A stretch of DNA of 64,000 nt from Streptococcus anginosus (lineage in GTDB: Bacteria > Bacillota > Bacilli > Lactobacillales > Streptococcaceae), in contig NZ_LR134283.1 of assembly GCF_900636475.1 (NCBI RefSeq), forward strand, positions 1,889,655 to 1,953,654, in the 5' to 3' direction. Of the stretch, positions 49,021 through 64,000 are shown in pieces (the stretch's first letter is position 1; each line of letters opens with the position of its first letter). The position numbers and the translations under genes are program-made. The notes beneath the pieces were generated by a model, which saw only the letters and a list, made by a program, of their open reading frames with translations, did no database searches and had not been told where the DNA came from.

Positions 49021-50742
49021 ATGAAAGAAGTTTTTATTGGAAACTACGGTTTGGAACAAGTTGGTCAGAAAATGATAGCGACTGGGTGGGTTGCAAATAT
49101 CCGAAATCATGGGAAATTGGCTTTTATAGAGCTACGAGACCGAGAAGGACTGCTTCAAGTTTTTGTCGCAGGTGATAGCCCGGCTTTTACTGAAATTGAA
49201 CATCTACATAAAGAAGATGTGATTGCTGTTACAGGAGAAGTTGTCGAGCGAGAAGCCCGCTTTGTCAACAAAGCAATCAAGTCAGGGCAAGTCGAGCTGC
49301 GAGCGGAGGCAATTCAAATCCTTGCAAGCAGTAAACCTCTTCCTTTTGAACTCGATCAGCACGCCCATACAGGAGAAGAGTTGAGACAGAAATATCGCTA
49401 TCTGGATTTGCGTCGGAGTAAGATGACAGAGAACCTCAAACTTCGTCACCAAGTAACCAGCACAATTCGTGACTACTTAAACGGTAAGGATTTTCTGGAA
49501 GTGGAGACACCTTATTTGACGAAATCTACACCAGAAGGAGCCAGAGATTTTTTGGTTCCTAGTCGAGTTTTTAAAAATCAATTTTATGCTTTACCTCAGA
49601 GTCCGCAAATGTTGAAGCAACTCCTAATGGGAGCTGGTCTGGAGCGTTATTATCAAGTTGTTCGCTGCTTTCGAGATGAGGATCTACGGGGAGACCGTCA
49701 GCCTGAATTTACTCAGGTCGATATGGAAATGAGCTTTGCTAGTGAAAAAGACATTCGCATGCTTGTAGAAGAGATGCTCAAAGCGGTTGTTAAGAAAACT
49801 CATGGTTTGGAGCTGACAGAAGCTTTTCCGACTATCAGTTATGAAGAAGCCATGAACCGCTTTGGTACAGATAAGCCGGATACGCGATTTGGTTTGGAAT
49901 TAAAAAATCTGACCAATCTCTGTCAGGATAATCCCTCTCTTTTGCTCAAACAGGCTTTTGCTCGTCATGAAGAATTATGGGGCATTTGTGTTCCAAATGC
50001 TACGGATTCTTTCACGAAGAAGCAGCTCAGTCATTTCTATCAGGAAATGAAAGAATTTGGAGCTAGTAGGTTTGCTAGTCTTAAGGTAGAAGCAGGTGAA
50101 TTTCAAGGGGATTTGGCTTCGACTTTTGAGGCAGAAGCAGCTGCTTTCATAGACCGATTTGAAGCGCAAGGCGATGATTTGCTTTTACTGGTCATTGCCA
50201 AGAAAAGACAAGCTCAAGAAGCCTTGGGGCATTTGCGATTGGAGATTGCCAAACAATTAGATTTAATCAATCAGAGTCGACTGGACTTCCTTTGGGTGCT
50301 GGATTGGCCTTTGCTAGAGTGGAATGAGGAGCAAGAACGCTATCAAGCCATGCACCATCCTTTCACACAGGGGATTTTTGAAGATGGGCAAGAGCCAGGT
50401 CAATTTCGCAGCCATGCCTACGACATTGTCTTGAATGGCTATGAAATTGGGGGCGGTAGTTTACGGATTCATGATCGAAAGAGTCAAGAAGCTATGTTTG
50501 AACTTCTGGGTATGGAAAAAGAAGATTACGAGCGTGACTTTGGCTTTTTCTTAGAAGCGCTTGATTATGGTTTTCCGCCGCATGGTGGTCTAGCACTGGG
50601 CTTGGATCGACTGGTTATGATTTTAGCTGGTGAAGAAAATATCCGTCAGGTCATTGCCTTTCCGAAGAATGGAACTGGTTTTGATCCTATGCTAGAAAGT
50701 CCCAGCCAAGTAGATGCGAGTCAAGTGAAAGAACTTCAGTAA
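49021..50742 (+). CDS. aspS2: aspartyl-tRNA synthetase, second/divergent type (AspS2)
   Basis: A 573-residue class II synthetase: N-terminal OB fold (about 1-100), motif 2 FRDEDLRGDRQPEFTQ, an inserted GAD-type domain in the middle, and motif 3 GLALGLDRLVMIL. It charges tRNA with aspartate. Divergent from the usual streptococcal context next to hisS, and placed after codY-pncA where gatCAB commonly lies. The Asn-type T-box suggests a non-discriminating enzyme that makes Asp-tRNA(Asn) for amidation by GatCAB. AGAAAGAGG precedes the ATG. Specificity is inferred. Confidence 0.88.
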   Translation: MKEVFIGNYGLEQVGQKMIATGWVANIRNHGKLAFIELRDREGLLQVFVAGDSPAFTEIEHLHKEDVIAVTGEVVEREARFVNKAIKSGQVELRAEAIQILASSKPLPFELDQHAHTGEELRQKYRYLDLRRSKMTENLKLRHQVTSTIRDYLNGKDFLEVETPYLTKSTPEGARDFLVPSRVFKNQFYALPQSPQMLKQLLMGAGLERYYQVVRCFRDEDLRGDRQPEFTQVDMEMSFASEKDIRMLVEEMLKAVVKKTHGLELTEAFPTISYEEAMNRFGTDKPDTRFGLELKNLTNLCQDNPSLLLKQAFARHEELWGICVPNATDSFTKKQLSHFYQEMKEFGASRFASLKVEAGEFQGDLASTFEAEAAAFIDRFEAQGDDLLLLVIAKKRQAQEALGHLRLEIAKQLDLINQSRLDFLWVLDWPLLEWNEEQERYQAMHHPFTQGIFEDGQEPGQFRSHAYDIVLNGYEIGGGSLRIHDRKSQEAMFELLGMEKEDYERDFGFFLEALDYGFPPHGGLALGLDRLVMILAGEENIRQVIAFPKNGTGFDPMLESPSQVDASQVKELQ

Positions 50743-50787
50743 GTGTCTAGAGTTTCGGGAAACGTAAAATTAAATACCTTGTAACCT

Positions 50788-50818
50788 AAGAGAACGAAAA
50801 AATCGTTCTCTTTTTTCG
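50788..50818 (+). terminator. terminator of aspS2
   Basis: AAGAGAACGA (50788-50797) pairs with TCGTTCTCTT (50803-50812), followed by TTTT. Confidence 0.9.
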
Positions 50819-50850
50819 TTGCCTAAAATAATGGAAAGGACACCAAACAG

Positions 50851-51222
50851 ATGTCAAATAACATTGAAATCATCATGAATCTTGATACCTTAGAAATCTT
50901 TGAAGTAATTGATCTTGATGAAGAGAAAGAAGCAGCTGTTACAGATACTGAGGAGCTTCCTGAAGAAGTAAAAACATCCCCATACGATGACCTAGGAAGA
51001 GTTTGGCTAGGGAATGGTTATTACTACAAGCCTTTTAGCTTGCTTTGGAGAACTGAGAAAGATGATGTTATTCATGAGCTGAATCCCAAGAATAAACATG
51101 GCACCTATCCTTATCATAAACGAGCCCGAGATGGGACGTGGGGTCATATTTATCAACTGACACAAGAAGAAGCCTTGTGGCTAACCTTAGAGTTTAATCC
51201 TGAATTGATGAGTTATGTGTAG
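50851..51222 (+). CDS. hypothetical protein of the conjugative element
   Basis: A 123-residue protein I do not recognise. Acidic N-terminal half (DLDEEKEAAVTDTEELPEE, about 22-40), then an aromatic-rich half with WLGNGYYYKPFSLLWR and DGTWGHIYQLTQEEALWLT. No signal peptide or membrane segment. AATGGAAAGGA precedes the ATG. First gene after the aspS2 terminator. Confidence 0.7.
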   Translation: MSNNIEIIMNLDTLEIFEVIDLDEEKEAAVTDTEELPEEVKTSPYDDLGRVWLGNGYYYKPFSLLWRTEKDDVIHELNPKNKHGTYPYHKRARDGTWGHIYQLTQEEALWLTLEFNPELMSYV

Positions 51223-51243
51223 GGTTAAGAGAGAAAATAAAAA

Positions 51244-51426
51244 ATGACCGAACGAGAAGAATCACTTTATGAAGTAAGGTTATGCCTATTTGGAATCCCA
51301 TTATGGAAAGTAAAATACACTAAGCGAGAATTACTGATGTCTGCTTTTTGCGCTGCTAATAAGAACAAGATTATTGAATTGATATTTATTGATAAAGAGG
51401 GGGAATATGATATTTGGTATTTTTAA
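51244..51426 (+). CDS. small hypothetical protein
   Basis: A 60-residue protein (MTEREESLYEVRLCLFGIPL...), 21 bases after the previous gene. No recognised domain. Weak ribosome site. Its end overlaps a possible 19-codon frame starting at 51407. Confidence 0.5.
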   Translation: MTEREESLYEVRLCLFGIPLWKVKYTKRELLMSAFCAANKNKIIELIFIDKEGEYDIWYF

Positions 51427-51471
51427 CTTTTTATTGATTATATCAGTATTTAGAAAGGAGAGGTAGAAAGA

Positions 51472-51639
51472 ATGAGTGTCTTGATTCCTGTAAATATTAT
51501 CTTTGCTTTAATACTTTACCCTATGTTTATCAGTAATTATCGGAAAAGAAAACCTTATTTGTTGCATTTGTTTCTCTTTCTGATAAATGCTCTAGTATCA
51601 CTGTATGAGATTTTTAATTATTTAGGCTGGTTGAAATAA
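51472..51639 (+). CDS. small two-segment membrane protein
   Basis: A 55-residue frame, MSVLIPVNIIFALILYPMF onward, with two predicted membrane segments separated by the basic turn SNYRKRKPY. AGAAAGGAGAGG lies before ATG 51472, a strong site. Stop TAA at 51637-51639 is followed by GGAG for the next gene. Function unknown. Confidence 0.6.
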   Translation: MSVLIPVNIIFALILYPMFISNYRKRKPYLLHLFLFLINALVSLYEIFNYLGWLK

Positions 51640-51650
51640 GGAGATAGAGG

Positions 51651-52122
51651 ATGACTCAAGAAGAAATAGAAGCTGGAATTTGTAGACGATGCGGATGTAA
51701 TTGGATTACCCCTTGTATCGATGAAAAGTATGGTCCTTGCTGGTGGGTAGTATAGAACGCTGTGTAGTCATTGTTTTTATGGATTTAATGATGAACCTTA
51801 TCAGACGAAAGTTTACTATAGGCCAGGTTATGATTTTCTTGAGAGAAATAGAGAATTTGCATGGGGAATATTGACAAATCCAAAAAGTCACTGGGTTTAT
51901 GATATGGAACATGATGTTTTGTGTGTAGTTGGCTTAGGGGATCATATTGGAGCTGTTCGTTTTATTGCAAAAAAATTCTATGGACTAAAACGTATCTATC
52001 GTGAAGAGATACCTAAATGGCAAGAAATTATCGATGAGAATATGATTTTTTACAATGCAATGGTTGATGATCCAGAACATTATGCTTGGCATTTACCACG
52101 AAAGTATCGATTGGAGGATTGA
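51651..52122 (+). pseudogene. zinc-ribbon-like hypothetical protein, frameshifted
   Basis: The frame starting at ATG 51651 reads MTQEEIEAGICRRCGCNWIT and stops at TAG 51753-51755 right after GPCWWV. A different frame then continues without a start as TLCSHCFYGFNDEPYQTKVYYRPG and runs to 52122. Joined, the two give a protein of about 155 residues with CxxC pairs that look like one zinc site. A single indel near 51750 separates them. AAGGAG precedes the start. The last part could restart at ATG 51871. Confidence 0.7.
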
Positions 52123-52123
52123 T

Positions 52124-52801
52124 ATGAATAACAAGGTTATTTTTAAGATACAGAACCTTCTTGAATTAGCTTATGATGCACCAAATGACGAAGAAGGACA
52201 AACAGCTCTTCTAATGGCTCAAAAACTTATGGTCAAGCACAATCTATCTATGACCGACCTAACGACTACTAAAAACAAAAATAACATTGGTGAAACAGTA
52301 GGAACCTGGGAGTATAGAATGCCTTGGTGGCAAGAGAAATTAGCAGCTATTCTAGGTGAAAATTTTAGATGTAAAACGATAAGAAGAAGGGTTGTTGATG
52401 AAGGAATTACACAAATCATTTTCTTTGGGTATGATACGGATGCTGAATTGTGTACCAAGGTCTATGAAGGAGCTATTTTATATCTGAAGTATCGATTAAA
52501 ATGGCTATTTCCTACAATTCCTAAAGCACGTTGGAAAGATTATAAAAAGTCATACTTGATAGGATTTCTTGCAGGACTAGACGAGCGATTTAGAAAACAG
52601 GCACAATCCTCAGAAGAATTTGCTTTGATGGTGCAGGTACCAGCAGAAGTGCTGGAAGAACAAAGACTACGTATGGGAGAATTGAAAAATCGCGAAACTA
52701 AAGCACAGATTGAGAATATTGATTTTGAGGCGTATGTAACTGGTCTTGAACATGCTAAAAAATCTCGATTAATGCCTAATAAATTGTTAAAAAGCAGTTA
52801 A
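52124..52801 (+). CDS. DUF2786-domain protein
   Basis: 225 residues from ATG 52124, which has GGAGG upstream and follows the previous stop at once. The N-terminal helical region KIQNLLELAYDAPNDEEGQTALLMAQKLM (about 6-34) is typical of DUF2786 proteins, found widely on phages and conjugative elements. A later basic region KARWKDYKKSYLIGFLAGLDERF follows. Function not known. Confidence 0.8.
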   Translation: MNNKVIFKIQNLLELAYDAPNDEEGQTALLMAQKLMVKHNLSMTDLTTTKNKNNIGETVGTWEYRMPWWQEKLAAILGENFRCKTIRRRVVDEGITQIIFFGYDTDAELCTKVYEGAILYLKYRLKWLFPTIPKARWKDYKKSYLIGFLAGLDERFRKQAQSSEEFALMVQVPAEVLEEQRLRMGELKNRETKAQIENIDFEAYVTGLEHAKKSRLMPNKLLKSS

Positions 52802-52839
52802 GAAAACAAAAGAAAAAAGAATCCAATAAAGGAGTTTTT

Positions 52840-53025
52840 ATGAGAACACAACAATCTTCTATGGTTAAACTAACAAAAAATATGATGGTAATTGATTTGA
52901 TGAGAACAACAGGTTGGTCACGAGATCGAGCTCTTGCTGCGATTGAAGAATTGGAAGCAACGAGTTTAATCCAGTTTTCTCATCAAGGTGGTATGAAGCT
53001 ATGTATCAATGCTGAGGTGTTTTAA
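52840..53025 (+). CDS. small helical protein preceding the replication initiator
   Basis: A 61-residue protein (LTKNMMVIDLMRTTGWSRDRALAAIEELEATSLIQFS) that looks like a small winged or helix-turn-helix unit. AAAGGAG precedes the ATG and the gene ends one base before the next starts. Possible partner or regulator of RepA. Confidence 0.6.
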   Translation: MRTQQSSMVKLTKNMMVIDLMRTTGWSRDRALAAIEELEATSLIQFSHQGGMKLCINAEVF

Positions 53026-54102
53026 ATGATTCCAAATAGAGATATTACAGTCAATCAATTAACCACACAGACCTTTTATCAAATTCCACAATTATTTATG
53101 ACAAGAATTGAACGCAAGTGGAATCCTGAAAGAAAGATACTGATGACGATTCGTTACGTTAGTCCATACGTTAAATTATCTTCAGATGCCAAACTTAGTT
53201 ATGGCATATTGCTGAACCGTTGCCAGTTAAGTATTCATTCTCATGAAAGTGGGAACAGTGAATATGTAGATGAAAATGGCTCAGTGTTTATGATTTATAC
53301 AGTCAGCGATTTGATGGAAGTATTAGATAAATCAAAACCAACTGTTACCAAAATTAAGAAAGAATTAACTGAAATGGGCTTGTTGCGAGAAGTTCGACAA
53401 GGAAATAATAAACCGAATCGATTGTATTTACAAAATGTTGATGCAACTTGCCAAATAGTAGAGCATTACGATGAAAATAATGTCTTGTTAAAACGGTTTG
53501 ACTACTTTGGAAAACTTCTTTATGAGAAAGAGGAGTCGTTAACAGAAGAAGCGAAAACCCTTGATAATAGCGGAGGTAAAAAAATTGAACGTCCAAAATC
53601 TTTACTTCCGGAGGGTAAAAATTTTAACCCAAGTAAGAATAATACAAGTAAGACTGAGATAAATAATATTAGTTCTAGAAAGAGTGAGAAAATTTCTGAT
53701 GAAATTTCTCCCTCTCCTGAAGCTGATCATATACATCATCTAGAAAAAGTTGAGAAATATATTTCACCAAAATATTATTCTCTCTTACAAGTAATTGCAG
53801 ATGAGTATAATGGCAAATTTTGCCAACAAGATTTGTTTACTGGAGAGTTCCAAAATTACAGCTTAACTCATAGGCAAAAGATGATGATAGGACAATACCT
53901 TTCGGAAGGTTATGTGACCAGTAAAGAAGTTCTTAATCTTATTAATCGTATTCCCTATGATTGCGGATCTCCTTTAGCCTATCTCATGCGCAGTTTAGAA
54001 AACCTCAAGGAAGAGCGAAGATTAGAAGTGAAGATATTGGCGCATAAACAGGCAGAGTTGAAATATGGCAAGAGCAAGGGAGGAGACAAGTATGGCGTTT
54101 AA
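53026..54102 (+). CDS. RepA_N-family replication initiator
   Basis: A 358-residue protein whose N-terminal 120 residues (FYQIPQLFM, YVKLSSDAKLSYGILLNRCQLSIH, FMIYTVSDLMEVLDKSKPTVTKIKKEL) match the RepA N-terminal domain with a winged helix. A disordered, Ser/Asn/Lys-rich linker (about 180-235) and a C-terminal helical domain follow. RepA_N proteins start theta replication of Firmicute plasmids, including pheromone plasmids, and occur in integrative elements. The origin often lies within the gene; no iteron set is evident to the eye. Confidence 0.9.
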   Translation: MIPNRDITVNQLTTQTFYQIPQLFMTRIERKWNPERKILMTIRYVSPYVKLSSDAKLSYGILLNRCQLSIHSHESGNSEYVDENGSVFMIYTVSDLMEVLDKSKPTVTKIKKELTEMGLLREVRQGNNKPNRLYLQNVDATCQIVEHYDENNVLLKRFDYFGKLLYEKEESLTEEAKTLDNSGGKKIERPKSLLPEGKNFNPSKNNTSKTEINNISSRKSEKISDEISPSPEADHIHHLEKVEKYISPKYYSLLQVIADEYNGKFCQQDLFTGEFQNYSLTHRQKMMIGQYLSEGYVTSKEVLNLINRIPYDCGSPLAYLMRSLENLKEERRLEVKILAHKQAELKYGKSKGGDKYGV

Positions 54103-54382
54103 CAGACAAAAAGGCATTATCAGAGGCTCGATGGCTGCTAGAATACGTCCGACAGAACCGAAACCAGTACAAGAGATAGTGATGGAGATTGAGTATTTTG
54201 ATAAAACAACAGAAACAATTTCACTCACCTATAACCTAGAAGAACTACAGAGATTAGTATCTAGCTCTTTCAGTACAGGAGCTAGTATGAATTTTCCAAG
54301 TGCACGACCACCTTTTACAATCAACCCAAGATGGGTGAAGAAGGTGACCTACAAAGTAAAAGGGGTGATTCCATGTGACTAA
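54092..54382 (+). CDS. small hypothetical protein overlapping the initiator gene
   Basis: 96 residues from ATG 54092, with GGAGG at 54079-54084 as the ribosome site, overlapping repA by 11 bases. An earlier ATG at 54065 is possible. Contains EIEYFDKTTETISLTYNLEELQRLV. Not recognised. It overlaps the next gene by eight bases. Confidence 0.65.
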   Translation: MAFNRQKGIIRGSMAARIRPTEPKPVQEIVMEIEYFDKTTETISLTYNLEELQRLVSSSFSTGASMNFPSARPPFTINPRWVKKVTYKVKGVIPCD

Positions 54383-54641
54383 GCCTATCCAAAACCGAGT
54401 GAAGGAACTACGAAAACAAGCAGGTCTAACCCAGCAAGAGCTTGCAGATCAGCTTGGAGTTATTCGTAAGACAATCTCAAATTGGGAAAGAGGAACGAAT
54501 CGGATCAGTCCTGAACATACTGAAAACCTAGCTAGATTTTTTCAAGTGTCGGTTGGATACTTATTAGGCGTGAGTTCAGATCGCAAAGCAAGTTCAGATT
54601 TAGGTCACTATGTAGCTTATCGTCTTAAAAGTGAGAAGTGA
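54375..54641 (+). CDS. XRE-family helix-turn-helix regulator
   Basis: An 88-residue Cro/CI-type protein starting with GTG 54375 (AGGGG upstream). The helix-turn-helix is RVKELRKQAGLTQQELADQLGVIRKTISNWERG (about 8-40). It probably regulates the element, perhaps the promoter of the structured region downstream. Confidence 0.88.
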   Translation: MTKPIQNRVKELRKQAGLTQQELADQLGVIRKTISNWERGTNRISPEHTENLARFFQVSVGYLLGVSSDRKASSDLGHYVAYRLKSEK

Positions 54642-54689
54642 ACCTAATAGTTCTTCAAAAAATAAATGACCTAAGCAAGTCATAAAACT

Positions 54690-54940
54690 ACTTGAAGTTC
54701 TTTGACAATTGAATACCCCCACTGTCCTGATTAGCGGAACTAAGCATAAAAAAGAAAAAGGGCGGTGTGTAGCTAGAAAAAGATATCTAGCGCTGTTCCG
54801 CCACGTAAAGGCATAGCTAGTTAAAGCTATAAGCCGAAGGAGTTTGCGGTAAACTAGACTCAAAACCGTGCGTAAGAAACACAGTAGAAATGCTACGGCA
54901 TTAACTCGGCATGGCTGTAAATCAGCCTTTGATTCACAAG
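54690..54940 (+). ncRNA. candidate structured RNA or leader in the conjugative element
   Basis: The 309-base gap after the XRE gene has no plausible frame but several strong nested pairings: GGCGG (54761-54765) with CCGCC (54798-54802) enclosing GCTAGA / TCTAGC; GGC.TAGCT with AGCTA..GCC (54810-54834); GTTTGCGGTAAAC (54843-54853 region); and GGCTG / CAGCC (54913-54927). It ends at a strong AAGGAGG (54938-54944) before the next gene. It may be a cis-acting leader, a free RNA or a replication/antisense element. Confidence 0.4.
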
Positions 54941-54950
54941 GAGGAAAATG

Positions 54951-55268
54951 ATGAATCAAATAAATTCAACAAGTGAGGTAACCCTCACAGATTTAAGACG
55001 ATTAGGAATGCAAGGAGGTGCAACAGCCCTTCTTGACAATGGTGAAGAAGTCAAGTTGACGAAAAAATATGGTTTAATCTCTCGGAAAGGATACGTTGAA
55101 GGAAAACTTGTAACGGTTGCGACAATCGCAAATTATGGGAATATTTATAAAAGCATACGCACCATTAAACGTGGCAATATTCTTGTAGCCCGTAAAGTCA
55201 AACGAGGGAAACAGTCTATTTTACAATTAACTGGCAAAGGTTACCATAGACCGATCGTTCCATCTTAA
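54951..55268 (+). CDS. hypothetical conjugative-element protein downstream of the structured leader
   Basis: 105 residues from ATG 54951 (six bases after AAGGAGG; ATG 54948 is also possible). Contains LTDLRRLGMQGGATALLDNGEEVKL and a basic C-terminal half rich in Lys/Arg (RTIKRGNILVARKVKRGKQ). Not recognised; a small nucleic-acid-binding protein is conceivable. It ends about 150 bases before the surface protein genes. Confidence 0.65.
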   Translation: MNQINSTSEVTLTDLRRLGMQGGATALLDNGEEVKLTKKYGLISRKGYVEGKLVTVATIANYGNIYKSIRTIKRGNILVARKVKRGKQSILQLTGKGYHRPIVPS

Positions 55269-55417
55269 CAGATAGAGTCCTCATCTGTCTGTTTTGAAGA
55301 GCAAAGAAAGCCTCTTTCTTTGCTGTTGAAAGCAGATAGGTGTAAAGGAAAGAGAAGTAGATGAGTAGATTGAACTCATAACAAAAATAAAGAAATAAAA
55401 AATAGGAGTAACACATT

Positions 55418-57975
55418 ATGAAACAAGTTTCTAAAACAATTTTAACAACTATTGCAACAATTGCTGCTCTTAATGCAGGACAACAAGCAGTTCAAGCAGA
55501 AGAATTATCAAAAGTAGATCCTCAAAAGACTGAAGTCGATCAAGTTCAAAAAAGAAGTAACTCAAGCAGATGTGACGGCAAGTCAAACAAAAGTAACTGC
55601 CGCAAATACAGCAGTTAAAGCGCAGGAAACAGCTGTTGCGACAGCTAGACAAGAAGTCACAGTTGCTGAAAAGAAAGCAAGTACTGCACAAACTAATCTT
55701 TCTCAAGCAGAGAAAGTAGTTGCTGAAGCAACACCAGGAAATATTTCTAAAGCAGAACAGACGGTGAAAAATACGCAAACGGCTGTAGAAAATGCTGAGA
55801 AAGCTGTTACAGCAAGTCAAGCAGCTCAAACACAAGCTCAATCAGTTGTCACAAGTCAGGAAAAAGTTACGAAACAGGCACAGGAAGCGGTGAAGGTAAA
55901 ACAGGGTGAAGTAAGTAAAGCCAAAGAAAAAGTTGCGCAAAAACAAGCGATTTTAGATGGTACAGGCACAAAAGAAATCATTGAAAAAGCTGAACAAACA
56001 CAAGCTAAGGTTAATGCTGATAAAGAAGCAGTTGCCAAAGCTCAAACGAACTTGGTTGAAGCGAAGCAAGCAGACGCTAAGCGTGAGAAAGCTCTAGCGT
56101 CCGCTGAAAAAGAAGTACAGATTGCTAAAGCTACTGAACAAGAAACAGGACTTGATTATGCGCATAAAGTAAATGATGCAAATAAAACAGCCGATAAACT
56201 CTTTGAAGCTGATTCTAACTTAACAAAAGCCAATCATAAAGTTGAAGCTATCAATACGATTACGCTTTCGCAAGATTATATTGCAGCTCTACGAGACTAT
56301 AATCAAAACTTTACTAAATATAGTAAAGCAGAATTAAAGGCTCAAACTGATAAGCTGGTTGCTATGGGAAAGGCACTCGCTAAACAGAATCAATTTAAAA
56401 CGAATCAAGATGATAGTGATCTTGATACCTTAGATTTGAATCATCTCCCAGCCGAAGTTCGAGAAGAGATGTCTCTCTTTGCGGCTGATTTGCTCAATCA
56501 AATTCGTGCAGCTTTTGGAACAGCGAAAGTTGAAGTTTCTAGAGGTGCAACTGAAGCAGTTAATGAACATGTTTCCACTTCTGCAACGAATGGTGTGAAA
56601 GGTCATGATCGAGTAAATCTAGATCGAGTACTAGCTAAAGTAGGCATTACTAGCGGAACAGAAGAAAGCATTGGCTTAATGGGTGGATCTGGTTCTGCTC
56701 GGAAACAACAGAGAATCAGTCCACGTGAGTTAAAACGACTGATTTATAATAACATCTTGAACTTGATGTTTAATGCTTTTGAAGATGTAGAGGATAATGA
56801 AAACAATGAGTTTCTCCATGCTGGAACGCTAGCTGGATTATCTGAAAGCGGTGTGAAAAAGGCTTACTTAGGAGTCGGTACATCTTATAAAGATGACTTT
56901 TGGCAAGTAGTCAACTTCCTCTTTGTGTATGATAAGGCTCTTACACAACCAAATACCTTTGACGCCAAGCATTGTCTAATCCATTTGATAGTAAGGAAGT
57001 CTTAGTCCGTCAAAAAGCGGCGCAAAGCGCTTATGATTTAGCTAAGAAAGCTGACGAACAAGCCAAAGCGAATCAAGCCCAAGCAGAAACAGACTATCAA
57101 AAAGCGAAAGAGAAGCTAGCGCTTGTGACTGCTAAACGGGATAGTTTGAAAGCTGAAACTCCTTTAACTCCTGCCGCAGAAACAGCTCTCACAAAAGCAC
57201 AGGAAACGTTGAAAGTAGATGAAGCAGAAAACAAAGCGGCACAAAAGGCGGTGAAGCAACTAACTGCGGATGTTAAGGCGAAACAAGAAGCTTTAGCGCA
57301 AGCCAAAGCGGAATTAGCTCAAACAGAAACAGAGTTAAAAGCTCTTGAAGCGATTCTTTCAACGGAACAATCCACTTTAGCTGCTAAACAAGCAACTCTT
57401 GCACAAGCAAGAAGACTTGTTAAACAACGTGAAGCTGAATTAGTACAAGTAAAAGAACACCGTACAAAAGCACAAGCAGTTGTTGCTCAATTGAAAGCCG
57501 CTCCAGCCATGCTGAAACAAGCTCAAATGGCTTATCGCTCTGCTAAACAAATGTTATTTGAAAAGAAAGAAATATTAGGACGTGAAGAAGCTAAATTGAC
57601 TGTATTAAAAGCTGAACAAGCAGAAGTGACAAAACAACATCAAGCACTTGTGAAGATTTATCAAGAACAATTGGAAGCAGAACGTCAAGCTAAATTAGCG
57701 GAACAAAAAGCAGTTATTGAAAAAGCAGGCGGACAAGCAGTTCCAGTCTTTGATGAAACTGGTAAATTGGTTTCTTACGAAAGTATGTATAAACAAGCTA
57801 CACAATTATTAGTGGGAAGTCAATCAACTGTTCAGCCAGTTCAGGTAAATTATTCAACTCGTTTGAAAAAGCACTTCCTTCTACTGGTGAAAAAGGCTCA
57901 ATCTTGAGTGCAATTGGTGGATTGCTTCTAATTGGCTTTAGCTTTGTGGAATATAAAAGAAAAGAAGTGAAATAA
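55418..57975 (+). pseudogene. SEC10/PgrA-type surface exclusion LPXTG protein, frameshifted
   Basis: One coding region broken by about three shifts into frames 2, 3, 2 and 1. In order: signal peptide (MKQVSKTILTTIATIAALNAG..AQAEE), a long Ala/Gln/Lys coiled coil, a globular SEC10/PgrA domain around 56450-56950 (LPAEVREEMSLFAADLLNQIR), a second coiled coil, and a sorting signal LPSTG (57874-57888) with membrane segment and tail KRKEVK. The first shift is an extra A in a run near 55550. Intact homologues block redundant conjugation. An AGGAGT site precedes the ATG. Confidence 0.85.
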
Positions 57976-58089
57976 GGAGCAAGTATGTATTTAATGTATT
58001 TTCGGATGGCTCGTGCGCCAGCCTTGGATTGAGTGTATCAAATGGGAAATGTTAATTATTAGTTTAAAATACAAGGAGAAACTGAAAAC

Positions 58090-61000
58090 ATGAAATCAAA
58101 TGAAACAAAAACGTATGGTTCTATCCGTAAGATTAAGGCTTATGGTGCTTGTGGAGTTATTTTAGGGCTTGCTGCTTTAGCTGTGGCAACAGCGCAAACA
58201 AGCTATGCTGATGAGGCAACAACTACTCCGAAACGGCTACAAATTTGCCAGCTAGTCAGCCTGCGCAAACCCAAGCCGCTAAACAAACGATTGCTCAGGC
58301 GAATCAAGCCCAAGGAACTGTAAATGTCACAGTAGATAATTCGCAAGTTAATCAAGCAGCTAACCAAGCTCAAAATGCTGGTGTTAAGGTTGTACAAGAT
58401 ACTCCAGTTGATAAGGGTACAACGAATACGGTTAACTGAAACGCAAAAGGCACAAGCTGAAATTGCAGCAGATCAAGCAAAACAAAAAGCTGCGGTTGAA
58501 CAAACAACGGCTGATTATCAAAAAGCGGAAAGTGGATCATGCAAAAGCGGTTGAAGAAACCAAGCAAAAGAATGCGCAAATTGAAGCAGAAAATAAAGCT
58601 TTGAAAGAAGCACATGACAAGGCTAGCCAACAAGCAGCGCAAACCAATCAAGCAGTGGAACAAGTGAAAGCTAAGATTAAAGCTGAGTTTCCAGATGCCA
58701 AAGTGACGGAGACCACTAAAGAACTTAAAGTGGATCCAACCAAAACGTCTTATGATGCCTATACAAAAGTTGTCGATCAAGTAAAGCTGAAAATAAAAAA
58801 AGCTACTGAACCTATCAAGCTGAAAAAGCGAAAGAAAATCAAGAAATCGCAGAGACAAAGGCTTATAACGAAGCGGTGCAAAAACGCAATAGTGAGAACA
58901 AGGCAAAAGTAGAAGCCGAAAATGCAGAAATTGCCAAACGCAACCAAGCTCAGTTGGCTCATAAACAATCTGTTGAAGCAGAAAATGAAGCAATCAAAAA
59001 ACGCAATGCAGCCGGTCAAGCAAAGGTAGATGCAGAAAACAAGGAAATTGATAAATTCAATAAGGAAGTTGCGGAATTTAACAAGTCTGAAGATGAGCGG
59101 GTTGCGAAAGAAAAAAGCGCAAGCTGAAAAAGATAAGGCAAAAGACGGTTATTTGTCTCAAGCGTCAGTTCAGAATTTAATTTATAATCAGAACCAAATG
59201 CAACATTTGAAGTGTTGACACCTAATTCTGGTTATCCAAGCTCTTAGTTCAGGTGATGAAATATATGGACCACAAGAAAAATTGCTCAAGGTAATTTGTT
59301 GGTACGATTAATTTAAAACAAGGTAAGAGTATTCAAGTAAAATATAGCAATCTTCAAAATTCTTTTTACAATGGTAAGAAAATTTCTAGTGTGTGTTGAC
59401 TTATACTAATAAAACAAAAGATCCAAATCCTAAAGCAGACTTAGGAATGGCGTTCTTTAAAGATCCAACAAAGACATTTTGGCTATTTACAACGACAATA
59501 GTGATACGATTCCAACTGAAGTGGGCATTGACTTAGAATTTTTTGATGATAAAGGTCAAAAAATTTCTTTGACAAAAGATGAAGCGTTGATTGGACTTGC
59601 TTCACTGAATAATGATACTACGATGAATGGTGCAAATGCTCAACGTTCCGCAATTGAACAAGTACGGGTTAATAATGGTGAAATTGTTGAAATTACCGGA
59701 AGCAGTGTTAAAAAACATGGAAATTTAGCTTATTCTGATACAGATAATCACTTTAAATCTGCTGGCTCGAAATTTGAGCAAGATGATTGGGATACAGGAA
59801 CGAGTAGTAGTCGTTATTATGGTGCTGCTGTAGCTAAATTTAAGAATGTAGATAAAATTTCTTTAACGTCTATTTCTTATAAACGTCCTACGGTTTGGTT
59901 AGCTATCAATTCTGAAATTGCAGTACCAAAAGTTCCGACTGCACCACGTTATAAAGAATCGAAATCTCATAAGACTTTTACTCCTGAAAAACTCAAAGAA
60001 GTTCCAACTCCTAAATTGGAAGAGTTGAAGAAGTTCGTTCCTGAAAAGGAAAAAACTGTACCAACTCCAAAAGTTAAATTGATGTTGGTAAAAGTGAATG
60101 GTGTACCAACTCCAATCTATAAGCCAAAAGAAAAAGAACCAACTGCTCCCGTAGTGCCAACGGTACATGTTCATGATTATAAATTATCTACTCGTCCGCA
60201 AATTGCGAAAGCTGTTGAAAATTCGGATAAGATGAATATTAACGGTCAGTATGTTGCTAAAAACTCGCTTAATCGTTTTGCTTTGCAGACGGAAGTTCTT
60301 CCTGCTAATCGAACAACTTATACAAAGTTAGTCTTTAATGACCATTTACCATCAGGCTTTAAGTTAGATGTAGAAAAAACAAAAGAAGCCAATAAAGGCT
60401 ATGAGGTTGTTTATAATGAAAAAACGAATTTCTTGAGCTTTACAGCTAAAAAAGAAATCCTTGATGCAGTTAATAAAAACCGTGCGAAGGAATATCAATT
60501 GGAGGCATTGTCTGTCTGGGGTCGTCCCTCAGAATGACGCTGCAGATTACGAAAATGTCTTTGAAATGGTTGTAAACGAAGGACATAGTAAGGGTGGCTA
60601 TACACGTAAATCAAATAAAGTGTTAATTCATACGCCAGGTAAACAACAACCAAACAAACCAAATGATCCAAAGAATCCAAATCGGGATCCATTAAAACCA
60701 GAAAAGCATAATTACAATGCTGCTGGAAAATTGGTAGATGGCAAAGAAATGTTGCCTGAAGGAATCAATTACTACGTTTCTAAATGGACGAATTCGTCCA
60801 AACAAGAACGACAAATCTGGCAAAGAAGCGATTGCCTAAAGGCTTTGCATACATTGAAGATTATCAAGATGATGCAGTAACACCGCTCGAAAGTCGATTC
60901 CAAGTAAAAGATGCACAGGGTAAAGCTGTGAATGGATTGAAGATGTATCATGTTTTAGATCGTAAGACACTCTCTAAAGCCTTAAATGATATGATTGATC

Positions 61001-61868
61001 GTTCAGGTATTTCTCCAAAAAGTGCGTTTTATATGTGGGTTGCCGAAAAACCAGAAGAATTTTACAAGGCTTATGTGCAAACTGGTATGGATCTATATTT
61101 TCACACACCAATGAAAAATAAAAAGAGTTTTATTGGAAAATATACCAACCAAACTTTCCAAGTACAGTTCGGCAATGGCTATTACTCAAATGTAGTAGTA
61201 AATCATGTGCCAGAGCTAAAAGTTCAAAAGCAGGTTTACAATAAATTAGGTGACGGTCAAAATCTGGATGGTAAGCTTGTTAAATTGGGTGATAAGTTCT
61301 ATTACTTCTTAGATGGAGCTAAGTTGCCTGCAAATCGTGGTGAAGCACTCAAAGAATACCGATTCTTTGATGATTTTGACCAAAAAGGTGATGAATTTAC
61401 TGGCGAATATAAAGCTCTTGCAGGGGTTGACATCAAATGAAAGATGGTTCAGTGATTAAGGCAGGTACAGACTTATCACAATATGCGGAGCTGAAATATA
61501 ACAAAGCCAAAGGTGTTGTCGAGATTTCTATGAAGCAAGACTTCTTGGATAAGGTAGATAATGCTTCCGAGTTTGACGTGGATGCTGCGATTCAAATGAA
61601 ACGGATTGCGGCTGGAACATTTGAAAACACCTATAAAAACGTAGTAAATGGTCATGAAGTTGTTTCTAATACGGTTAAAACAAGTACACCTGAACCGGAA
61701 AAACCACAACCTAAGAAACCAACTCCAGCTCCAAAAACACCAGCTCCAAAAACACCAGCTCCAACTTTACCACAAACAGGTACAGCTTCTGGTATTGGAT
61801 TGTCTGTTTTGGGAATGATTCTTGCAGGCTTTGGTTTATTTGGTTTGAAAAAGCATAAAGAAAATTAA
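58090..61868 (+). pseudogene. antigen I/II family adhesin (SspA/B-, Bsp- or PrgB-related), multiply frameshifted
   Basis: A single 3.8-kb coding region with about ten or more one-base shifts. Signal start MKSNETKTYGSIRKIKAYG, then Ala-rich A-region repeats (AEIEAENKALK, KVEAENAEIAKRN; 58320-59140), V-region (59160-59930), proline-rich P-region (VPTPKLEELKKFVPEK; 59930-60160), C-terminal adhesin domains (60170-61690), and LPQTG at 61767-61781 with tail KKHKEN. Shifts include a lost G near 58230, extra T near 58434, extra A near 58526 and extra A near 59115. At about 1,260 residues it is shorter than SspB. Confidence 0.88.
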
Positions 61869-61883
61869 AGAAACACAATCTGT

Positions 61884-61919
61884 CATCCAGTCATAAGGTT
61901 GTTTTATGACTGGGTGATG
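61884..61919 (+). other. strong hairpin between the adhesin and the proline-rich protein
   Basis: CATCCAGTCATAA pairs with TTATGACTGGGTGATG (one bulge) around GGTTGTT. The T-run is short (TTTG), so it may act as a weak terminator or processing site. Confidence 0.6.
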
Positions 61920-61947
61920 TTTGATAAAAAAGAAAGAGGTATTCTAT

Positions 61948-62718
61948 ATGACCAAAAAACAATTTCTTGCAGCACTAGCTGTTTCTACCCTCGTTTTGGC
62001 AAATAGTGGAGCTGCTTTGGCGGAGGTAACGCCTCCTGTGGTGGATCCTTCTACTCCTGGAGTGGTGGCACCAGACCCATCTACCCCTACGCCATCAGAG
62101 CCGAGTCAGCCAGCACCAGAAACACCAGTAGATCCGACGACACCGTCCACTAATCCATCTGAGCCAAAGCCAGAAACCCCAGGAACAACTCCATCAGAAC
62201 CTTCTGTTCCTTCCGATCCAACGACACCTTCAACGAATCCATCGACGGAACCAAAGCAACCAACTCCAGCACCAGCGGAACCAGAAAAACCTTCTAAAGA
62301 TGAGAAAAAGGAAGATCCCCAACCGACTCCCAAACCTACAGAAGAACAACCAAAAACAACAGATGAGGCAAATCAAGCAGGTAAAAGTCAAGTTGGTACC
62401 ACTTCCACTTCAACAGGACAAGTGGTTCAGGATGTAGCCCCTAATAAACCTGTCCATACAGAAAATGGCTATACGATTGTAGGAGTACAAGATAGTCATC
62501 CCGTGATCGCAAATGGCGATGGAACAACTTCTGTGGTGGAACCTGAAGTCGTAGGGGCAACGGTTAATGCGGATAAAACCGTCACCGTTTCCACTGCTAC
62601 AGGAGAGAAGAAAACACTCCCTCATACGGGTGAAGCAAGTAGTGTCCTTACAGTATTAGGAGGCTGCCTCCTTTCAGGTTTGGCATTAGTAGGTGTTCGC
62701 AAACGTAAAAAAGACTAA
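61948..62718 (+). CDS. proline-rich LPXTG cell-wall protein (PrgC-like position)
   Basis: 256 residues from ATG 61948 (AAAGAGG upstream). Signal peptide (MTKKQFLAALAVSTLVLANSG..ALAE), then about 120 residues of repeated Pro/Ser/Thr/Glu units such as PSTPGVVAPDPSTPTPSEP and PSTNPSEPKPETPG, a short folded segment (ENGYTIVGVQDSHPVI), and LPHTG (62617-62631) with membrane anchor and VRKRKKD tail. The frame is intact, unlike its two upstream neighbours. By order it resembles prgC of enterococcal pheromone plasmids. Confidence 0.9.
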   Translation: MTKKQFLAALAVSTLVLANSGAALAEVTPPVVDPSTPGVVAPDPSTPTPSEPSQPAPETPVDPTTPSTNPSEPKPETPGTTPSEPSVPSDPTTPSTNPSTEPKQPTPAPAEPEKPSKDEKKEDPQPTPKPTEEQPKTTDEANQAGKSQVGTTSTSTGQVVQDVAPNKPVHTENGYTIVGVQDSHPVIANGDGTTSVVEPEVVGATVNADKTVTVSTATGEKKTLPHTGEASSVLTVLGGCLLSGLALVGVRKRKKD

Positions 62719-62829
62719 CCAGGTAGATGATTGATTTGATTTTATAACAAAATTGGTTACAAGAAGATAAGAACCAGATGCTTGTGACCTTTTATTTTGA
62801 AAGATTAAAAGAAAGAAGGAATATATATT

Positions 62830-63058
62830 ATGGATACAGCAGTACGTGTTGTCATTGCTTTAGGTGGGGTTCTTGCAATTGTTGGACTTGGCTGGGTATT
62901 GACAGGAGCGTTTGATTATTTTGCGGGACGTAAAAATGGGAATCCTCAAATGGATGGATCAGGGGATGACCTCAATGATCTCTGGCGGAGCCATCGCAGC
63001 GATTGCAGCAGGAGTTGCAGCAGCCATTGTAGCTGCTATGCGTGCCATTACATTTTAG
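62830..63058 (+). pseudogene. small two-segment membrane protein of the conjugation system (PrgF/pilin-like), one-base frameshift
   Basis: The frame starts MDTAVRVVIALGGVLAIVGLGW with AAGGAA upstream, then shifts at GGGG 62962-62965. With one G removed it continues GSGMTSMISGGAIAAIAAGVAAA to a stop at 63058, giving about 75 residues with two membrane segments joined by a short loop. This is the pattern of small T4SS membrane subunits. As written the frame runs on to 63072 with an implausible Cys/Ser-rich tail. Confidence 0.75.
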
Positions 63059-63144
63059 AAAAAAGTGACTAAGGCAAAGAAAATGAGTTATCCATTACTC
63101 TAAAAATATGGTATAATAAAGGCAATGAAACAAGAAGAGAGGAT

Positions 63145-63699
63145 GTGAGACAATGGCTGAAACATTTTGATTATGTGGGATTTGCAAGAGACTTTGAAAA
63201 ACGTTATGGTCGTCCACCGACGTCTGAAGAACTTGAAAAAGGCATAGATCCTTTGGAAGGAATGATGAGAATTCCTACCCAAGAGGAAGTAGAGACGGAA
63301 ATGGCTCGTATTAATGCTTCTTACAAACCTAGCTTTGGGGAACGCCTAAAAACAGGGCTTAGCTTTTTAGGTAGAAATGGTATTAAGGCTTTTGTTCTAC
63401 TACTTCAAACGCCAATCTACCTCACACTCTTTTTCTTTAATTTAATTAAATCAACTATCGGAGTTGCGGTTATATATGTTGTGACAAAAGGTATTGTTGG
63501 TGTTTTGCTATCAGAGTTTTTGTCTTGGCGAAACGTAGAGACTTTATCGCAGACTTCAAATTTATTTCGCTTTTTTGCACAAGATTTTATGACGGATAAA
63601 TTAGAGCCAATTTATTTTACTGAGATTGATATTATAATCTGTATTATTTTTACATTCTTATTAGCCTTAGTTGCTACGTTTTCAAAAACAGAGACTTAA
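63145..63699 (+). CDS. conjugation-system membrane protein (possible frameshift at the start)
   Basis: 184 residues as read from GTG 63145, with two to three membrane segments (AFVLLLQTPIYLTLFFF, IGVAVIYVV, IIICIIFTFLLALVA). GTG is only two to three bases from AGAGAGG. A better start is ATG 63153, ten bases from it, which reads MAETF and then stops unless one T of TTTT (63165-63168) is removed; then it joins DYVGFARDFEKRYGRPPT. I suspect a one-base insertion. Function unknown, placed between other T4SS genes. Confidence 0.7.
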   Translation: MRQWLKHFDYVGFARDFEKRYGRPPTSEELEKGIDPLEGMMRIPTQEEVETEMARINASYKPSFGERLKTGLSFLGRNGIKAFVLLLQTPIYLTLFFFNLIKSTIGVAVIYVVTKGIVGVLLSEFLSWRNVETLSQTSNLFRFFAQDFMTDKLEPIYFTEIDIIICIIFTFLLALVATFSKTET

Positions 63700-63707
63700 A
63701 ATATTTC

Positions 63708-63732
63708 AAGAACCTTTCGAGGTTCTTTTTAT
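63708..63732 (+). terminator. terminator within the conjugation gene cluster
   Basis: AAGAACCT (63708-63715) and AGGTTCTT (63720-63727) with the loop TTCG, followed by TTT. Confidence 0.8.
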
Positions 63733-63752
63733 TTTTTAAAGAAAGGAGAAGA

Positions 63753-64000
63753 ATGAAGGATATACTATCAGAGCTGACTAGAGGTCTTGGAAGCTATAAT
63801 TCTTCTGTAAATAGTTCAATTAACGCAGTCAATAAATCTTTAATGGTGATTGGTTATATTCTTGTCTCAATTCTATTTTTGATTGAGATGTTATCTTGGT
63901 ATCGTTTTATTCGGAATCAGGGCGGAGAGATGACCTGGAAACTATTTTTAGAAGTAGCAGTCAAATACTTTATTGCTTATTTTTTGGTGGCTCAATCAGG
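63753..64000 (+). CDS. conjugation-system membrane protein, N-terminal part (PrgH/VirB6-like by position)
   Basis: Open from ATG 63753 (AAAGGAGAAG upstream) to the window end, 82 codons. Begins MKDILSELTRGLGSYNSSV, followed by two hydrophobic segments (LMVIGYILVSILFLIEML and VKYFIAYFLVA). The arrangement fits the start of a polytopic VirB6/TrbL-like protein. Assigned by position and hydrophobicity only. Confidence 0.6.
   Translation, partial: MKDILSELTRGLGSYNSSVNSSINAVNKSLMVIGYILVSILFLIEMLSWYRFIRNQGGEMTWKLFLEVAVKYFIAYFLVAQS

Follow-up and report, generated by a model that had tools for sequence, protein, structure and literature searches.

Two described systems stand closest to the locus reported here. 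Sections of two reports on the TnGBS2 family of integrative and conjugative elements (ICEs) describe a RepA_N replication initiator and insertion 15-17 bp upstream of sigma-A promoters by means of an ISLre2/UPF0236-family DDE transposase (PMC3942029; PMC4701971). TnGBS-related ICEs also carry antigen I/II (Bsp-like) adhesins, and it has been published before that antigen I/II adhesins on TnGBS elements probably serve to attach recipients. The other system, pCF10 of Enterococcus faecalis, is a plasmid with pheromone control whose genes for a SEC10-type surface protein, an adhesin (PrgB), PrgC and PrgF are followed by those for VirB4 and PrgK and then VirD4, MobC and a relaxase. The stretch analyzed here (the window) comprises 64,000 nucleotides of Streptococcus anginosus (assembly GCF_900636475.1, genome G000) and forms the final part (C1:1889655-1953654) of a contig of 1,953,654 bases (NZ_LR134283.1, here C1). 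It ends within a run of surface-protein and T4SS-type genes that an initial annotation of the window had assigned to a chromosomal relative of pCF10. The locus very probably represents a complete TnGBS2-type ICE, inserted between aspS and gatC, with a second, intact copy in the same chromosome. Known here from sequence alone, this ICE adds one more example to the known TnGBS family, and its antigen I/II adhesin likely takes part in mating-pair formation.

Extent, ends and target sites

The gene run that reaches the end of the window resumes at the first base of the contig (locus L003, which starts at C1:1); comparison with the intact copy shows that the contig lacks 1,659 bases of the element between its end and its start. 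Copy 1, the window copy, spans from window position 50739 to L003:18756, whereas copy 2 (loci L039 and L040) lies intact at C1:64062-97733 and measures 33,672 bp. The two are 99.8% identical over 32 kb. The transfer genes, including those of a type IV secretion system (T4SS), that were anticipated beyond 64 kb are present, although the contig is no longer than the window end and they lie at its opposite end, from C1:1 onward; among them are genes for VirB4, VirD4 and a relaxase, all related to those of pCF10, which bears out the proposal of a chromosomal element that is conjugative by gene content. In place of the integrase that had been looked for, a DDE transposase was found, and a TnGBS-family ICE had not been foreseen.

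The element starts with GTAAGTGTCTA and finishes with TAGACACAAAC, and its terminal inverted repeats, which are imperfect, are the same in both copies. Each copy has its own 9-bp target-site duplication, AGAACTTCA on both sides of copy 1 and TATTGTATA for copy 2. Provisional ends at 50743 and L003:18752 were replaced by 50739 and 18756 after comparison of both copies and the empty site. At that site aspS and gatC adjoin without an element in 3 of the 23 loci of relatives, only the gatC side being matched in the other 20. The left end replaces the final codons of aspS and provides a stop codon at 50740-50742, such that AspS ends in KELQ here versus KELYLELKN or KELHLELKN in the three relatives without the element.

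The right end of copy 1 lies 16 bp upstream of the -35-like hexamer of a sigma-A-type promoter-like site, TTGAAG-18-TAAAAT, in front of gatC (9/12 match), and that of copy 2 lies 16 bp upstream of the hexamer of TTTACA-16-TATAAT (11/12 match). It is the equal spacing at two unrelated targets that carries weight, not the promoter-like sites, which by themselves are not rare; the likeness to the TnGBS rule covers this distance, not orientation relative to the TnGBS2 reference. The transposase (433 amino acids, aa) belongs to the ISLre2/UPF0236 (p-MULT 3) DDE family (PF06782, E 5.1e-16), and 325 bp separate the end of its gene from the right terminus of the element. Its relatives stand beside related relaxases in S. 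thoraltensis (75% identity, two internal stops), S. ictaluri (73-74%, in pieces) and S. agalactiae (63%). The transposase at the related relaxase of S. hyointestinalis is only 48% identical, and one of 76% adjoins another relaxase in that species. The traits of the TnGBS elements are thus found together: a transposase by one end, terminal inverted repeats with a target-site duplication, promoter spacing, and RepA_N and T4SS modules. Insertion associated with a tRNA gene was ruled out, as the window and L003 contain no tRNA, and Rfam at gathering scores gave no match in the window, in L003 or in the corresponding locus of S. agalactiae ATCC 13813 (L037). A plasmid collection yielded no near-identical DNA match to window positions 50800-64000.

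Two near-identical ICE copies occur in one chromosome despite the surface-exclusion-type protein that the element encodes. Because the copies are almost identical and the element has its own exclusion-type gene, the second copy hints at transposition inside the cell in preference to a second mating.

Gene content and likeness to pCF10

Beyond the genes in Table 1, the contig start encodes VirB4 and a PrgK-like lysozyme/CHAP protein (both in pieces), VirD4, MobC, the relaxase and the transposase, then gatC and gatA; MobC, gatC and gatA were identified by eye and by BLAST comparison. In copy 2, these proteins measure 802 aa (VirB4), 898 aa (PrgK-like), 685 aa (VirD4), 553 aa (relaxase) and 433 aa (transposase). 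VirB4 belongs to the CD1110 family (912 bits; cut-off 325), VirD4 carries a T4SS-DNA_transf domain (E 1.5e-58), and the relaxase, of MobA/VirD2 type, has Relaxase, Relaxase_M and Relaxase_C domains. The SEC10 protein of the intact copy has an LPXTG motif and matches TIGR04320 (220 bits; cut-off 70), with weak matches to the PrgA structures 6z9l and 6z9k (41 and 28 bits). The PrgH/VirB6-like protein of that copy matches TrbL below the cut-off of 25.9 (20.7 bits, E 3.9e-4). The RepA_N initiator and the three LPXTG genes that had been recognized upstream of the T4SS are all there, although the first two surface genes are broken into several frames in the window.

Twenty-seven proteins of the element were compared by BLAST with bases 1-45000 of pCF10 (E 1e-4, best hits only, no low-complexity filter); the record names only some of the pCF10 genes, and several others go here by their customary names. 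The gene order is collinear from SEC10 to relaxase, as had been supposed. Toward the front, identities were 32% for RepA (149 aa), 26% for SEC10/PrgA, 29% for PrgB (593 aa) and 36% for PrgC, and further on 28% for PrgF (53 aa), 28% at the PrgH position (189 aa) and 44% at the PrgL position (133 aa). Those of the T4SS were 43% for VirB4, 32% at the PrgK position, 28% for PcfB (99 aa) and 45% for VirD4, followed by 36% at the PcfD position (412 aa), 36% for MobC (94 aa) and 39% for the relaxase. No pCF10 hit was obtained for 13 of the 27. Of the proteins at 62830-64000, for which a comparison with PrgF, PrgG and PrgH had been suggested, the first and the one at the PrgH position match, but the protein at the PrgG position has no match in pCF10. 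PrgI was recognized by Pfam at its cut-off in the intact copy, not by BLAST against pCF10.

Table 1. Features of copy 1 within the window (positions are those of the window unless a locus is named)
Feature	Position	Strand	Remarks
9-bp target-site duplication AGAACTTCA	50730..50738	.	3' end of aspS; twin at L003:18757-18765 (= C1:18757-18765)
Left terminal inverted repeat	50739..50796	.	partner at about L003:18701-18756; two blocks of 17/20 matches
123-aa protein	50851..51222	+	at the front of several related elements; no Pfam match
DUF2786/DUF7168 protein	52055..52801	+	domain match
RepA_N replication initiator	53026..54102	+	PF06970, E 8.8e-17; 32% over 149 aa to the pCF10 initiator
Cro/CI-type helix-turn-helix regulator	54375..54641	+	domain match
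106-aa protein preceding the surface genes	54948..55268	+	35-74% identity in other elements
SEC10/PgrA (PrgA-like) LPXTG protein	55418..57976 (end approximate, by correspondence)	+	frame broken; intact at L039:6741-9299, 852 aa
Antigen I/II LPXTG adhesin, PrgB position	58090..61868	+	frame broken; intact at L039:9414-13193, 1259 aa
PrgC-like Pro/Ser/Thr-rich LPXTG protein	61921..62718	+	265 aa in the intact copy
PrgF-like small membrane protein	62830..63072	+	75 aa in the intact copy
Membrane protein, PrgG position	63145..63699	+	no pCF10 match; 181 aa in copy 2
PrgH/VirB6-like polytopic protein, start only	63753..64000	+	truncated where the contig ends; full length in copy 2, 250 aa

Two further gene products of the element may be recorded. 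A protein of 1564 aa (L040:9657-14351) combines Toprim/DUF3991, PBECR4 nuclease-like, TSP3-repeat, ArdC-N and M78-type peptidase domains in one chain, as read from its two pieces in copy 1 (one open reading frame, ORF, with Toprim and one with PBECR4, TSP3 and ArdC); in a circular S. ruminicola record discussed below, a gene annotated as DNA topoisomerase and a PBECR4 gene stand apart, unlike in this fused protein. Between the PrgH-like and PrgI genes, L039:15787-16861 encodes proteins of 170 and 208 aa with no Pfam match, the former also found in the S. thoraltensis and S. ictaluri elements and the latter in that of S. thoraltensis.

The antigen I/II adhesin

The intact copy of the adhesin has the Pfam domains P1_N, GbpC, AgI_II_C2 and Antigen_C and a cell-wall anchor; an Ala-rich stalk and a Pro-rich stretch were seen by eye, and the C1-C3 domains match Protein Data Bank (PDB) entries over residues 685-1189. 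The NCBIfam models gave 750 bits for antigen I/II, 184 bits for the SspB-type C2 domain and 177 bits, in the C-terminal part, for aggregation substance. The score for the full-length antigen I/II model lies below its cut-off of 1500, the protein having 1259 aa versus 1551 model positions, and a full-length match to the aggregation substance (PrgB) model NF033875, whose cut-off is likewise 1500, is absent. PrgB shows the reverse, with 2938 bits for aggregation substance and 237 for antigen I/II. The best-matching PDB entries, 4tsh, 6e3f, 3qe5 and 7l0o, bear the names surface protein adhesin, antigen I/II, PAc and agglutinin receptor and are oral streptococcal proteins; the structures of BspA and PrgB match less well. 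The description of this protein as a true antigen I/II adhesin is upheld by its scores and by the presence of the family domains.

The place of such adhesins beside T4SS genes was surveyed in 147 Streptococcus genomes and 14 control genomes. A CD1110-type VirB4 was found in 64 of the 147 genomes and an SspB-type C2 domain in 96; among the controls, the C2 model found nothing and the VirB4 model matched in 3 of 14. Of 118 VirB4 matches listed, 87 were kept, 31 that were split or partial being dropped. They were set against 150 listed antigen I/II domain matches (85 genes) and 28 listed SEC10 matches, and the resulting counts are lower bounds. Antigen I/II stands in two layouts beside VirB4: upstream at 2.2-5.3 kb in at least 14 of the 87 cases, the layout of the present element, and downstream at 10-16 kb in at least 21. 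At least 10 of the 14 upstream-type loci have SEC10 further upstream, and two of the other four start near a contig end. Among the matches listed, VirB4 genes without an antigen I/II nearby (52 of 87) outnumber those with one.

In the second layout (genomes G126, G158, G073 and others), the antigen I/II protein is long, and as many as four C2 domains are listed for it. The S. anginosus genome encodes a third VirB4 of CD1110 type (C1:315204-317459), distinct from the other two; no antigen I/II is listed on the same strand less than 20 kb away, and this VirB4 marks another conjugative element. At one locus of another genome (L068; G067 C1:871800-877400), a further ICE has its VirB4 interrupted close to the Walker A region by a stretch whose ORF, judged by eye, resembles a protein of group II introns. 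VirB4 is split at model position 455-458 in several genomes; in S. agalactiae the split falls across a run of N, which ruled out an insert in that case.

A tree of the C2-C3 domains comprised 25 sequences, including those of 20 loci picked by hand, not at random, from the survey; sequences aligned over less than 250 aa were left out. The present adhesin stands alone on a long branch at an unsure position among open forks. Adhesins borne by ICEs fall into at least three deep groups, and six of the seven sequences without a nearby VirB4 share a 15-member group with nine ICE-borne ones (support 87/99, drawn open). No origin is claimed for the adhesin because its placement is unsure and the long branch of PrgB may attract others.

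Streptococcal relatives and mosaic structure

Among the records compared, the nearest transfer genes are those of S. thoraltensis DSM 12221 (L036) and S. ictaluri 707-05 (L038), with VirB4 identities of 94% and 92%; the S. ictaluri adhesin is in pieces, the best of them 40% identical over 576 aa. The back of the S. thoraltensis element is close throughout (PrgF 94% over 53 aa, PrgH position 87%, PrgI 86%, VirD4 80%), whereas its front is distant (123-aa protein 37%, RepA 28%, 106-aa protein 35%, PrgC 39%), and the stretch examined contains a different LPXTG surface protein and no SEC10 match. The converse holds for the element at L050 (genome G118), whose front is closer (123-aa protein 66%, 106-aa protein 71%, RepA 44%, antigen I/II 40% over 1120 aa) and whose back is distant (VirB4 57%, PrgF 43%). 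The S. anginosus element thus looks mosaic, with transfer genes nearest those of S. thoraltensis and a front nearest that of other elements, and the simplest reading would be a recombination somewhere between PrgC and PrgF. Against this, the RepA of S. hyointestinalis (45%; VirB4 77%) is no more distant than that of L050, and SEC10 is only 33% identical in L050. The evidence for a crossing therefore comes chiefly from the proteins of 123 and 106 aa and from which type of surface protein is present.

The element of S. agalactiae ATCC 13813 (L037) combines a close T4SS (VirB4 85% over 498 aa) with a RepA of 39% and an adhesin of 28%, and has no SEC10 match in the 21 kb examined. The circular S. 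ruminicola record p1_CUN_G3 (NZ_CP046625.1) resembles the element in its SEC10, SspB-type adhesin, LPXTG protein, T4SS and MobC genes (relaxase 73%, VirD4 71%, ISLre2 transposase 62-63%), and differs in the order of its LPXTG genes, in having ParA and Fic genes, and in a transposase placed before repA and not after the relaxase. With respect to a circular intermediate, this circular record is at most suggestive.

Alternative explanations

Several observations weigh against the placement of the element in the TnGBS2 family, or against a part in mating for its adhesin. The likeness to TnGBS2 rests on published traits, not on a gene-by-gene alignment to the TnGBS2 reference. The promoter scan taken alone is weak, with one site found versus 0.4 expected in the gatC stretch and two versus 1.1 in that of copy 2 (expectations from shuffles of the two 201-base stretches). 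Identity is low to PrgA (26%), PrgB (29%) and PrgF (28%), the PrgC match to pCF10 is partly compositional, and the closest plasmid record, that of S. ruminicola, is typed as non-mobilizable in PLSDB. In S. thoraltensis and S. hyointestinalis, elements whose T4SS genes are close carry a different surface protein, which implies that antigen I/II is not required by this type of T4SS. Finally, the net charge of the GbpC/polymer-adhesin domain is 0 versus +9 in PrgB, where the domain limits are those that we assume. No PrgB-like positive charge was found in the 15 of 27 adhesins matched by the profile (PrgB not among them), the other 14 ranging from 0 to -14. In the relevant part of one report, PrgB binds lipoteichoic acid and DNA through a positive surface (PMC7726212); with a charge of 0, that DNA-binding surface is not predicted here, and the ligand of the adhesin may differ from that of PrgB.

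It is conceivable that the antigen I/II gene is cargo that aids colonization of animal surfaces by the host cell and has no direct part in mating. The absence of a net positive charge and the lack of antigen I/II in the S. thoraltensis element, whose VirB4 is 94% identical, agree with this, as do the roles in host binding, biofilm formation and aggregation given for antigen I/II proteins in parts of two publications, where no transfer assay figures (PMC5513104; PMC6586375). However, antigen I/II sits between SEC10 and the T4SS genes, the position of PrgB, in at least 10 of 14 upstream-type elements, and the S. thoraltensis and S. hyointestinalis elements fill this slot with a different YSIRK/LPXTG protein, whose match to Adhesin_P1_N, the N-terminal domain of antigen I/II, is weak and falls just short of the cut-off. 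Moreover, according to the sections consulted of one study, an ICE-borne antigen I/II of S. suis drives cell-cell self-aggregation, being needed for most of it in a serotype 9 strain and not in a serotype 2 strain (PMC5513104). Elsewhere, antigen I/II and PrgB are noted to carry the same polymer adhesin domain, in a section on mating adhesins (PMC12857230), and class III antigen I/II-like proteins are noted to occur on multiple mobile elements (PMC7726212). On balance, the cargo explanation is considered unlikely, and participation of the adhesin in mating is preferred.

The broken frames of the surface genes and of VirB4, which abound in the window as well as at the contig start, could instead indicate a decaying remnant. 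Copy 1 differs from copy 2 by four mismatches and by 62 small indels, of which 23 fall in the window and 39 beyond C1:1, and 57 of the 62 lie within 6 kb of the contig ends; the host part of the window is not fragmented (40 ORFs of at least 80 aa, median 346 aa, 90% coverage), and an intact copy exists in the same genome. Decay is therefore very improbable. Because the indels cluster at the contig ends and the host part is unbroken, we infer that the frame breaks reflect sequencing error left by the assembler in one of two near-identical repeats. Least credible of all is an integrated, pheromone-controlled relative of an enterococcal plasmid, which shares the collinear SEC10-adhesin-PrgC-T4SS-relaxase order but is opposed by the TnGBS-type ends and transposase, by the much closer streptococcal elements (VirB4 94% versus 43%) and by the finding that, in the comparison of best hits with bases 1-45000 of pCF10, none of the 27 proteins queried had its best hit on the PrgX, TraC, TraB/GumN-type or PrgU genes, so that no control genes of the PrgX/PrgY/PrgZ type were recognized.

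Proposed mechanism and implications

The sequence itself shows the anatomy of the element with its ends, its spacing from the targets, the presence of two copies and the families of its genes; the steps of transfer are modeled on work with pCF10 and TnGBS. In this model, the transposase would excise the element as a circle that RepA_N would copy, the relaxase would nick it, and VirD4 and the T4SS would export it to a recipient, with the PrgK-like enzyme cutting the cell wall. The antigen I/II adhesin would grip the recipient, the SEC10/PrgA-like protein would act in surface exclusion and adhesin processing, and the PrgC-like protein would be an accessory adhesin, all three acting as in pCF10.

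The finding links a family of oral adhesins with a conjugative transposon that is complete and present at two sites of one chromosome. Since the general idea is in print, the gain is a well-delimited example together with an apparent mosaic break between PrgC and PrgF, and the mosaic make-up looks to be a new detail. It also offers a clean case, with a nearly identical T4SS and a different surface block, in which the mating part of antigen I/II could be addressed by gene removal. A bolder suggestion, doubtful at present, is that the block from the 106-aa protein through SEC10 and the adhesin to PrgC is an exchangeable cassette for recipient choice, and that the antigen I/II proteins of oral host adhesion are offshoots of a conjugation set, as the tree group shared by ICE-borne adhesins and most of those with no VirB4 nearby would suggest; RepA is excluded from the cassette because it is equally close in S. 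hyointestinalis. If true, a swap of this cassette between near-identical transfer machines would change the type of cell that is gripped and excluded.

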